The position numbers and the translations under genes are program-made. A stretch of DNA of 64,000 nt from Acidihalobacter prosperus. GTDB taxonomy: Bacteria; Pseudomonadota; Gammaproteobacteria; DSM-5130; Acidihalobacteraceae. Below, one piece after another: positions 36,020 through 40,654 of this stretch (the first letter of the stretch is position 1; every line of letters starts with the position of its first letter). The stretch is from the NCBI RefSeq assembly GCF_000754095.2, contig NZ_JQSG02000006.1:294637-358636 (forward strand). The letters run 5' to 3'. The notes beneath the pieces were generated by a model. It had not been told where the DNA came from, searched no databases, and saw nothing but the letters and a program-made list of their open reading frames with translations.

Positions 36020-37102
36020 ATGCAAATACTTAATAATGATCGGTTGTTGCGAGCCCTGTTGCGGCAACCCGTCGACACGACACCGATCTGGGTGATGCGC
36101 CAAGCAGGACGCTACCTGCCCGAGTATCGGGCCACACGCGCACGCGCCGGCAGCTTCATGCAATTGTGTCGCACGCCAGAACTGGCGTGTGAGGTCACGC
36201 TGCAGCCACTGGCGCGCTTCCCGCTCGATGCGGCCATCCTGTTCTCCGACATCCTGACCGTGCCCGATGCGATGGGGTTGGGCCTGTATTTCGTGGAGGG
36301 CGAAGGACCGCGGTTTGAGCGCGTGCTGCGAAGCGCTGCCGACATCGATGCTTTGCCTCGCCCGGACCCCGAGGAAGCCCTGGCCTACGTCATGGATGCC
36401 GTCCGCATGATCCGCCGCGAGCTTGACGGTCGCGTCCCGCTGATCGGATTTTCGGGCAGCCCATGGACATTGGCGACCTATATGGTGGAGGGCGGTGCAA
36501 ATCGCGAATTCGCCCACACCAAAGGCCTGCTGTACGACCAACCCGCGGTATTGCATCGTCTGCTGACCAGGCTGGCCGACACCGTCACCGACTATCTCAA
36601 CGCCCAGATCCGCGCGGGCGCGCAAGCGGTGATGATATTCGATACCTGGGGCGGCATCCTGACGCCCGCCGCCTATCGCGACTTTTCGCTCGAGTACATG
36701 CATCGCATCGTCGACGGACTCATCCGCGAGCACGAGGGTCGGCGCGTGCCGGTAACGCTGTTCACCAAGGGTGGCGGGCAGTGGCTGGAGGCGATGGCCG
36801 ACACGGGCTGCGATGCACTCGGGCTGGACTGGACCATAGACATCGGCGATGCACGTCGCCGCGTAGGTGACCGCGTAGCCCTGCAGGGCAATCTGGACCC
36901 TGCAGTACTATATGCGGGACCAGAGCGCATTCGCGCGGAAGCCGCCGCCATTGTCTCCGCCTATGGCGGCGGCAGCGGCCACGTGTTCAATCTCGGGCAC
37001 GGCATACATCCGCACATCGATCCAGAGCACGTGGCCGCATTGGTTGACGCCGTGCATCTTGCAGGCGCGACTGCCGGTCGATCGGCCGTTGGCGGCGCCT
37101 AG
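36020..37102 (+). CDS. hemE: Uroporphyrinogen decarboxylase HemE
   Basis: A 360-residue enzyme converting uroporphyrinogen III to coproporphyrinogen III in heme synthesis. Family motifs: [20 protein letters not shown] near the start, [14 protein letters not shown] (catalytic Asp), [19 protein letters not shown] and [16 protein letters not shown]. Its start region is AT-rich. It overlaps the convergent unknown gene at 37099 by four bases. Confidence 0.96.
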
Positions 37103-37707
37103 GCGGGCACGCCGCCGGAAGCCATCAAACGTCTGAGTTCGGCCATATCGGCGCGGCGCATCGGCCGACCATCGACCGGGCTGGGAGGGGCGCGGCGTAA
37201 ACCGTCGGAGGGGAAGACCACCACCTCCACCTCTTCGTCACCTAGCCTGAGCAGCAGTGCCGGGTAGGCCCGCGCCATTCGGCCCTCGCGCAGCACGCGC
37301 TCGGACTCACGATAGCTGATCCGCCGATCCATCAGCACGAAGATGACATCCTCTACCGCCTCCGCGAACACATGGAGCACGGCGCGCGAGCCCAGCCCTG
37401 CCGTACCGTTTAGCGCGGCCCCCACCAAACGCGGCTGGAACCCTTCAAGCAGTTGCATCGCCTGCAGCGCCCTTTCGCGCAACTCATGCAATGCCGCGCG
37501 ATCCTCTTCGTCGAAAAACAATCGCCGGTGATCCTGCATGGCCGCTTCGATTTCGCGGTTGCTCGGCAGGTGACGACGGCCTACCACCCTCAAACGTTGC
37601 GACGCCTTGTGCTTGGCCATCGCGAAATCATGCACGCCCTCTTCCAGCATGATCCGTGCGCATTCCTGTGCCACCAGTATTCTCTGGCGCTCGATGTTGG
37701 CAGACAT
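37099..37707 (-). CDS. Conserved-looking protein of unknown function next to hemE
   Basis: A 202-residue soluble protein; I do not recognise its name. Residues ~12-60 ([40 protein letters not shown]) look like a helical domain. Residues ~90-150 ([40 protein letters not shown]) have the rhythm of a nucleotidyltransferase-like fold, but this is tentative. The ATG at 37707 has GGGGGTGG upstream; the longer open frame enters low-complexity DNA. It is convergent with hemE and upstream of it lies the probable MITE. Confidence 0.65.
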
Positions 37708-37824: not shown

Positions 37825-38095
37825 TAGGGCCTGTTTTCCCACGACGGGGTGGCCGTGCTGCCGGAGCCACTTTTCGCGGCTCTGGCAGGCGCCGCGCGCG
37901 GTGTGTCCGGCCGCATGAGCGAGCGGCCACTGCGCGAGATGCGAAAAGCGACCCGGTCCCGCGTGGTGCGGCCGAAACACCGCCACCCGGCGCTGCGCGC
38001 CGCTGATTTGGCAGCACCAAACTACGCTCCTCGCGACTTGATTGGTGGTGTTTCAGTCGCAACAGCATGCCACTCCATCGTGTAAACAGACCCTA
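37825..38095. mobile_element. Putative 267-bp non-autonomous transposable element (MITE) with TA target duplication
   Basis: The left end GGGCCTGTTTTCCCAC (from 37827) and the right end GTGTAAACAGACCC (to 38093) are imperfect terminal inverted repeats; 12 of the first 14 bases of the two ends agree when read inward. Each end is flanked by TA (37825-37826 and 38094-38095), the expected duplication. The interior has no supportable gene but holds hairpins, for example CCGGAGCC/GGCTCTGG near 37860-37886. The GGGYCTGTTT end type recalls IS5-family elements. The right TA forms part of the ponA stop codon. The stretch 37708-37824 shows nothing else. Confidence 0.6.
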
Positions 38096-40654
38096 GTACA
38101 GCTGCTGGGTCAAACCGCGGCTGCCCTGCGGCGTCGCCTCCGAGCCCGATACCGCCGCTGGCGTGTCCGGCTTGGGCAGATGGCCTTCGCGGAATGTCTC
38201 GAAGATCGCATCGGCCTCGCCGGGACTCGCCAGCAGCCCCGTCTTCGGATCGATCTTGACGGTGACGATGCCCTGCGGCTGCGGCATGGTGGCTTCCGGC
38301 TTGCCGGCCAGGGCCGCCCCCATGAAGCCCATCCACATCGGCAAGGCCGCACGCGCACCCGTCTCGGCATGCCCCAGAGGCTGATTGCCGTCGAATCCAA
38401 CCCAGGCCGTCGTCACCAGATCGGAATTGAAACCGCTGAACCACGCATCGACCTGATCATTGGTAGTACCGGTCTTGCCTGCCAGATCGGCACGATGCAG
38501 GCGCAGCGCCGCGCGACCTGTACCCATGCGGATCACGTCCTTCATCATGCTGGTCATTTGATAGGCATTGCCGGCGCTGATCACTCGCATGGCCGGCTTG
38601 ATGGCCGGCACCGATGTCGTGGCGCCGTGAGCGAGCGTGCCCGCCGGCGGCAAAGGTGTCGCGACCGCCGGGCCGGTGGTGTCGGCGGGCAACGGTGCAG
38701 CCGGCGCAGTGGCCGCAGCGGAAGCCGGACAATCGGGCTCACATACCGTGTCCGGCTGAGCCTGGTACAGCACACTGCCATCACCGCCCACGATCCTTTC
38801 AATGTAGAACGGCTTCACGCGATAGCCACCGTTGGCGAACACGGCGTAGCCCGTCGCCATTTCCAATGGCGTCACGCTGGCACTGCCCAACGCCAGTGTG
38901 AGATTGTGCGGCAGACGCGCCGGATCGAAACCGAATCGCGAGGCGTATTTGAGCGCGTAGTCGATACCGATCGACTGCAGTACGCGTATCGATACCAGAT
39001 TGAGCGAATGCACGAGGCCAAGCCTGAGGCGGGTAGGCCCGTTGAAATTACGTTCGTAGTTCTCGGGGCGCCAGACACCCTCCAGGGCCGAGTCCTTGAC
39101 CACCACCGGCGCGTCATTCACCAGCGTTGCGGGCGTATAGCCGTCATGCAGGGCAGCCGAATATACGAAGGGCTTGAAACTCGAACCGGGCTGACGAAGC
39201 GCCTGGGTCACGCGGTTGAACTTGCTGGCGTAGTAGTCGAATCCGCCCACCAGCGCCACGATCGCACCGTTACGCGGATTCAGCGAGACCAGCGCACCTG
39301 CGACCTTGGGCACCTGCGCCAGCGACCAGCGTCCCTGCTCATCGCGCACCCGGATCACGTCGCCCGGCTTGAGCAGGGCATCGACGCGCGTGGGCACCGG
39401 GCCGACCCGGTTGACGCTGATATAGGCGCCGGCCCAGCTCATGTCCTTAAGGTCCAACGTGACCACCTGGCCGCCGTCGAGGTAGACCTGCGCGGTCTTG
39501 TCGCCGGACGCCACCACCAGCGCAGCCGGCAAACCGCCGACCGGCGCGTAGCGGCCCAGCATCGCGTCCCACGCAGGCACGGCCTGACCGCTCGCGGAAG
39601 CACCGGCAGCCGGCATACGCGTCAAATCCGCCCGCCACGCTTTCAAAGCGCCCGCGTCCAGTTTCACCTTCGCTTCCGGGCCACGATAGCCATGGCGCTC
39701 CGTATAGGCGATCAGATCGTTGCGCAGAGCATGCACGGCATCGATCTGATCCCGGGCGAGGATTGTGGTGTATACCTTGAAGCCGTCCGTGTAGGCACGG
39801 TCGCCATACCGGTTGTACATTTCCTGGCGCACCATCTCGGCCAGGTAGGGCGCCGGCGCCTCGATATCGGTGCCATGCAGGCTGGCGGTGATCGGCGCCT
39901 GCATGGCCTGCTGATACTGAGTCCGATCGATGAAACCGAGATCGTGCATCCGCGTCAGCACGTAGCCGCGACGTTCGAGCGCGCGGCTGGGATCCGCGAT
40001 GGGGTTGTACGCCGAGGGCGCCTTGGGCAGGCCGGCAATCATGGCCATCTGGGCAACGCTCAAATCCTTGACGTTCTTGCCGTAATATACGTGTGCCGCC
40101 GCGCCCACGCCGTAGGCGCGATTGCCCAGGTAGATCTTGTTGAGATAGATCTCGAGTATCTGATCCTTGGTCAGCGCCTTTTCGATCTTGAGTGCCAGGA
40201 ACAGCTCACGAATCTTGCGCGAATAGGTCTTTTTATCGGAGAGAAAGAAGTTGCGTGCAAGCTGCATGGTGATGGTGCTGCCACCCTGACGCTTCTGGCC
40301 GGTCTTGATAAGCTCGAAGGTCGCACGCAGGAGTCCGCGTATGCTGACGCCGGGATGTTCGTAGAAGTTTGCATCCTCGGCCGCAAGGAAGGCATGCACC
40401 AGGGTCGGCGGTATCTGATCGAAACGCAGGGGATCGCGGCGCTTCTCGCCATACTCGGCCACAAGCTTGCCATCTGCGCTATATACCTTCAGCGGCACCT
40501 GATACTGGACGTCACGCAGTGCTGCGACGTCGGGCAGATTCGGGGCGAAGTAGAGGTAGGCGAAGGCGGCGGCCAGGGCGCCCACGGTGGCGCCGCCCGC
40601 AATCAATATCAGGAGCCAGCGAACGATCCTGCCGATGAGTCTCATGGCGCTCAT
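38093..40654 (-). CDS. ponA: Penicillin-binding protein 1A (bifunctional transglycosylase/transpeptidase)
   Basis: An 853-residue class A PBP. An N-terminal membrane anchor is followed by the GT51 glycosyltransferase domain (LVHAFLAAEDANFYEHPG, GGSTITMQLARNFFLS, KILEIYLNKIYLG-type region). The transpeptidase motifs are SSFKPFVY (SxxK Ser), an SxN-type region and KTGTTND. An OB-like insert lies between the domains. It polymerises and cross-links peptidoglycan. It is divergent from pilM. The stop TAG at 38095 abuts the MITE; without the element the frame would still stop there (TAA), so the protein is not truncated. Confidence 0.95.
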   Translation of the reverse strand: MSAMRLIGRIVRWLLILIAGGATVGALAAAFAYLYFAPNLPDVAALRDVQYQVPLKVYSADGKLVAEYGEKRRDPLRFDQIPPTLVHAFLAAEDANFYEHPGVSIRGLLRATFELIKTGQKRQGGSTITMQLARNFFLSDKKTYSRKIRELFLALKIEKALTKDQILEIYLNKIYLGNRAYGVGAAAHVYYGKNVKDLSVAQMAMIAGLPKAPSAYNPIADPSRALERRGYVLTRMHDLGFIDRTQYQQAMQAPITASLHGTDIEAPAPYLAEMVRQEMYNRYGDRAYTDGFKVYTTILARDQIDAVHALRNDLIAYTERHGYRGPEAKVKLDAGALKAWRADLTRMPAAGASASGQAVPAWDAMLGRYAPVGGLPAALVVASGDKTAQVYLDGGQVVTLDLKDMSWAGAYISVNRVGPVPTRVDALLKPGDVIRVRDEQGRWSLAQVPKVAGALVSLNPRNGAIVALVGGFDYYASKFNRVTQALRQPGSSFKPFVYSAALHDGYTPATLVNDAPVVVKDSALEGVWRPENYERNFNGPTRLRLGLVHSLNLVSIRVLQSIGIDYALKYASRFGFDPARLPHNLTLALGSASVTPLEMATGYAVFANGGYRVKPFYIERIVGGDGSVLYQAQPDTVCEPDCPASAAATAPAAPLPADTTGPAVATPLPPAGTLAHGATTSVPAIKPAMRVISAGNAYQMTSMMKDVIRMGTGRAALRLHRADLAGKTGTTNDQVDAWFSGFNSDLVTTAWVGFDGNQPLGHAETGARAALPMWMGFMGAALAGKPEATMPQPQGIVTVKIDPKTGLLASPGEADAIFETFREGHLPKPDTPAAVSGSEATPQGSRGLTQQLY

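Follow-up and report, generated by a model that had tools for sequence, protein, structure and literature searches.

Several families of MITEs have been described in bacteria. MITEPsy1 of Pseudomonas syringae has been shown to transpose (PMC3189936). RUP is attributed to IS630-Spn1, an IS with a different sequence (PMC2229807), and QMITE1 of Coxiella burnetii has no match in other genomes (PMC5896051). The bacterial MITEs compared here are reported from single species, genera or families and have been explained as IS leftovers. The element described below lies behind ponA in Acidihalobacter prosperus, in a stretch of 64,000 nucleotides (the window; contig NZ_JQSG02000006.1, positions 294,637 to 358,636), and is a member of a family that keeps one conserved two-hairpin design in many Pseudomonadota. 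We put at about 0.9 the probability that it is a MITE of old lineage, with IS5-type terminal inverted repeats (TIRs) and two hairpins, which an IS5-family transposase moves to YTAR sites and which is silent on stop codons, hence the pile-up of copies at gene ends.

Positions 37825-38095 are laid out as TA, 267 bp and TA, with imperfect TIRs beginning GGGCCTGTTTT and GGGTCTGTTTACACGATGG (Table 1). The first-pass annotation had proposed a 267-bp MITE with TA on both sides, imperfect IS5-like TIRs and no coding content, and all of this holds. The length and the flanking TAs are exact, the terminal 12-mers (TAGGGCCTGTTT and TAGGGTCTGTTT) are identical at 11 of 12 positions, the ends match those of an IS5-family IS, and the ORFs of 67-93 aa present in the body are broken by indels between copies, leaving no conserved reading frame. 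Allowing at most one mismatch, the element end has two matches in the window, against 0.12 expected. Compared with the family consensus GGGCCTGTTCACACGATG, the left TIR of the ponA copy has two extra base pairs inserted. The 267 bases inserted behind ponA form a genuine mobile element without coding content, a MITE: like bacterial MITEs in general it is short, non-coding and multicopy, with TIRs and a target-site duplication, and it has ends in common with autonomous ISs, these being found in a sister species and in a distant genus and not in its own genome. Its transposition, deduced from the sequence rather than observed, would have depended on the enzyme of another element.

Table 1. Features of the ponA locus, in positions of the window
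Feature	Position	Strand	Remarks
MITE body with TIRs	37827..38093	.	267 bp
Target duplication, left TA	37825..37826	.	other copies also TA-flanked, mostly in CTAG
Target duplication, right TA	38094..38095	.	also bases 1 and 2 of the ponA stop codon
Left TIR, GGGCCTGTTttCCCACGACGGGGTGG	37827..37852	+	2-bp insertion relative to consensus GGGCCTGTTCACACGATGGGGTGG
Right TIR, GGGTCTGTTTACACGATGGAGTGGCA	38068..38093	-	minus-strand reading
Hairpin module A	37860..37954	-	decayed inverted homologue of module B; weak covariance-model match, E=0.034
Hairpin module B	37963..38066	+	104 nt; stem covaries, cap conserved; covariance model E=3e-27
Mini-hairpin TTTGG-CAGCA-CCAAA	38007..38021	+	within the module-B cap
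ponA / mrcA, class A penicillin-binding protein	38093..40654	-	transglycosylase, OB and transpeptidase domains (Pfam, NCBIfam)
ponA stop TAG	38093..38095	-	target TA plus first G of TIR
Next gene on the ponA strand	37099..37707	-	no Pfam or NCBIfam match

The further genomic copies that the annotation had suggested looking for exist. In the 3.36-Mb genome that carries the ponA copy, 11 matches with the element and 21 with the consensus correspond to about 9 elements, and solo-TIR remnants are also present. One sister species (G002) has about 15 copies and the other (G001) a few; two genomes of another genus in the family gave no copies, and the 263-nt genus consensus had no match among plasmids. 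The empty site that had been called for was found as well, the orthologous ponA site lacking the insert in both sister species. There, ponA and the next gene are about 110-125 nt apart instead of 385 nt. A single copy, with no related IS and the same DNA in all relatives, is thus not what these genomes hold. It could still be imagined that the element is immobile, an ancestral intergenic repeat lost elsewhere. Identity among the copies in the genome of the ponA element is indeed no higher than 72-85%, and that genome yielded no DUF4096 IS. This explanation is nevertheless most improbable, given the empty orthologous sites in both sisters and the TA that flanks nearly every complete copy, in sites that read YTAR once restored.

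Several observations were made in passing. The gene behind ponA that has no domain match is conserved in all three species. Around one copy (L175 5089-15080, L165 1-10001), a 10-kb stretch is 99.5% identical between the genome of the ponA element and that of G002, although the two PonA proteins are 82% identical, which would reflect either recent transfer or a shared island. In G001, one family member (L061 576-1640; G001:C1:2569579-2570636) contains, inside a hairpin module, a VapBC-like toxin-antitoxin pair, made of a FitA-like RHH protein of 101 aa and a PIN protein of 139 aa and flanked by the 9-bp direct repeat TCGGCGTTG.

When the flanks of the ponA insert are joined, the gene ends in TAC-TAA. 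The element would have entered the TA of the stop codon, the first G of its TIR giving TAG and leaving the protein unchanged. That ponA passed from TAA to TAG in this way had already been suggested, and the joined flanks agree with it. However, in both sister species the same C-terminal residues, GLTQQLY, are followed by TGA, so that the TAA before insertion is inferred; it is not a shared ancestral state, and a TGA-to-TAA change would first be needed in the insert's own lineage. The accompanying statement that the gene was spared by one base is too weak, since the sparing is built in. All TIRs of the family begin with G, which turns the target TA into TAG, and the target is YTAR; therefore an in-frame insertion in a TAA or TAG stop always leaves TAG.

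With gene ends called by a simple, home-made codon-usage gene finder, a gene ends exactly on the TAG of the TIR in 6 of the 9 elements of the own genome and in 7 of the 14 independent elements of G002, that is, in 13 of 23 independent copies in the genus (57%). All of these gene products but the shortest gave a Pfam match (frataxin, HisB and a redoxin, for example), and wherever both flanks are known the restored stops are TAA or TAG. The solo TIR remnants L184, L185 and L186 also act as stops. Outside coding interiors, over 400 kb of the own genome, stops account for 23% of CTAG sites (26/113) and 13% of YTAR sites (53/412), and the genus value exceeds both (p=0.002 and p=2.5e-6, respectively). 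In other genera, ORFs of at least 150 codons end at the TIR TAG in 10 of 35 elements, against 17/369 YTAR sites (p=2e-5) and 3/53 CTAG sites (p=0.004); at a threshold of 100 codons the class-wide excess over CTAG falls short of significance (p=0.08). The genes concerned, Pfam-confirmed for most, include cysS, uvrC and dprA, and in one case (L251) the restored stop is TAC.

Two further arrangements were noted. At L181 (9901-10082) two convergent genes had overlapping stops in a single CTAG, and insertion there has given each of them a TAG of its own; a 41-bp remnant (L172 5067-5107) consists of two back-to-back TIRs, and one of these supplies the stop of a CTP_transf_like gene.

On the plain reading of the accumulation at stops, the element targets YTAR, harmful insertions are removed and those on stops are silent. 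Insertions in gene interiors would be removed by selection, while those in stop codons, being silent for the protein, would survive and pile up at gene ends. Whether the element itself contributes anything is a separate matter. We consider it rather probable that it has no preference for stops, the bias being due to the rarity of CTAG in genes together with selection against coding insertions. The fact that nearly a quarter of the CTAG sites outside coding interiors are already stops is in line with this; the genus figure is nonetheless well above that background. The class-wide test agrees only at the stricter ORF threshold, and an avoidance of promoter regions would also yield such an excess. 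In the accessible part of the open-access literature, no case of this kind, a MITE or an IS at stop codons, has been described.

A candidate for the autonomous partner was found in G002. Its IS5-family elements, about 800-810 bp long, are flanked by TA and have ends, TAGGGCCTGTTCACACTAAT, that match the local MITEs. Their reading frame is split at a run of A into two ORFs, with DUF4096 (PF13340) and DDE (PF01609) domains and matches to NCBIfam NF033580, transpos_IS5_3 (E=5e-26 and 5e-38). They thus combine a DDE transposase with a TA or YTAR target duplication, as expected of an IS5-family partner, whose subgroup may be IS427. The transposase of such an element would bind the MITE TIRs and insert the MITE at YTAR, usually CTAG, with duplication of the TA. 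A comparable IS5-family IS of about 810 bp, TA-flanked and with ends TAGGGCGTGTTAACACTAAT, is present in a distant genus (G126); these ends are the AAC variant of that genome's own MITEs, so that in both genomes the IS matches the variant, CAC or AAC, carried by the resident MITEs. The full-length IS sharing the MITE's ends that the first-pass annotation had asked for is therefore present in a sister species, but the DUF4096 test detected none in the genome of the ponA copy. With no such IS found there, this copy is probably stranded; the copies of its genome, at 72-85% identity to one another, are probably old. In only 3 of 16 other carrier genomes was a DUF4096 IS found above the family cut-off, and in two of these, G279 and G325, its ends do not match the MITE. 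The G002 IS and the MITE have in common roughly the 16 outermost bp of the TIR, and no more of their sequence, together with a TA target; unlike the MITE, the IS encodes a transposase and has no hairpin modules. With similarity so confined, the IS is at most a candidate ancestor of the MITE. Palindromic repeats of the REP/BIME type, mobilised by RAYT, are marked by GTAG and a TnpA_REP gene. It is unlikely that the present family should be filed with them, because its TIRs are of the DDE type and it duplicates TA.

The body, whose design is shared by many genera and had escaped the first-pass annotation, consists of two inverted hairpins of about 104 nt, 3 nt apart, for a total of about 269 bp including the TAs; clean elements with their TAs measure 268-271 bp in nearly all cases. 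The 104-nt hairpin, common to two further genera, covaries and served as the basis of a covariance model. At E<=1e-4 this model found the hairpin in 58 of 369 genomes of the class and 68 of 398 of the phylum, where well under one is expected by chance. Among the matches listed, a second inverted hairpin lies 3 nt away in 28 of 32 distinct pairs, and one-hairpin forms also exist (L416, L417). Module A, decayed in the ponA copy, matches the model down to E=8e-19 at the same position in other genera. In 38 sequences outside model building, 95.9% of cells pair, compared with about 40% for slid structures; double changes occur in 25 of the 31 stem pairs, and the cap is nearly invariant. Its mini-hairpin is 99% paired in one alignment (A3, columns 48-63) and 98% in another (A6, columns 45-59). 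Beyond their first bases the TIRs differ between genera, while being near-perfect within elements. Matching stretches in Halomonas, Methylophaga, Azotobacter and Pseudomonas plasmids bear no annotated feature, an element of genome G545 had no match among phages, and a search of the open-access literature for the cap sequence returned unrelated papers only. Going by that literature, the two-hairpin family may be new.

One might suppose that the hairpins are kept as RNA, the fold acting in 3' untranslated regions as an mRNA stabiliser, a terminator or a small RNA for which the copies at gene ends are retained. The fold is very stable on both strands (-159.7 kcal/mol and z=-8.1 in the sense of ponA, z=-5.7 on the other strand), the covariation is strong, and gene ends favour the module-B side by 16 to 6, a suggestive value that does not reach significance (p=0.052). 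On the other hand, selection on RNA should favour G-U pairs, and the imperfect cells comprise 14 G-U against 28 A-C (one invariant column excluded). Moreover, no terminator-like or promoter-like site was found in the element, comparison with Rfam 15 gave only matches below the gathering score, and about half of the copies are not on a stop. An RNA role consequently appears unlikely. As G-U is not commoner than A-C, the data point to maintenance of the stems at the DNA level, where they would be kept complementary either by hairpin extrusion of importance to the element or by correction of one arm by the other. A weak match to the sRNA Xoo8 (RF02243, 25.7 bits, below gathering) was noted at L219 578-880, adjoining an element-like repeat of G018.

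Arm-to-arm correction may even suffice without any function, template switching in quasi-palindromes keeping the arms complementary as in any long inverted repeat. Double changes (201 cells) far exceed one-sided ones, as this would predict, G-U is not preferred over A-C, and the inner halves of the TIRs, which differ between genera, are also near-perfect inverted repeats. Such correction alone leaves unexplained the conservation across genera of the cap, of the 3-nt spacer and of the total length, part of which a young age of the copies might account for. We regard a purely functionless covariation as possible, while not expecting it. Returning to the MITE moved by an IS5-family transposase, a more detailed version of that reading is offered tentatively, at something short of even odds. 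The family would be an ancient non-autonomous lineage in which the fixed two-hairpin body (about 265 bp) was kept and the TIRs changed with the IS5-type transposase that they followed; at the DNA level, mobility would require the hairpins in cis or use them as a site for a host factor, and silence on stops would come from the initial G of the TIR.

Among known systems, MITEPsy1 is likewise non-coding, with IS5-type ends and CTAG or YTAA as target; in the features compared, it differs in its 100 nt, its 4-nt duplication and its well conserved copies reported from one genomospecies (PMC3189936). Correia/NEMIS, RUP and ERIC/RU-1 share small size, terminal TA, TIRs and stable folds, but Correia/NEMIS and RUP measure 107-155 bp, the ends of all three differ from those found here, and the accessible part of the source describes no homologous inverted pair of hairpins with covarying stems (PMC2229807). 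QMITE1 and QMITE2 are, like the present family, highly structured gammaproteobacterial MITEs, and QMITE2 is found mainly in intergenic DNA and 3' untranslated regions; QMITE1 is 300-400 bp long with direct repeats of 2-3 nt, QMITE2 150-190 bp long with repeats of 7-11 nt (PMC5896051). MITEAba12 of the Moraxellaceae has a nearly constant length and a known IS partner, but it is 113 bp long, generates 9-bp duplications, has a weak secondary structure and is found in one bacterial family (PMC6382973). The occurrence here of the same two-hairpin body, with the same length and spacing, in many families and with different TIRs suggests that the body itself matters, and an end that regenerates a stop codon offers an explanation, simple and open to test, for the harmless build-up of a mobile element at gene ends.
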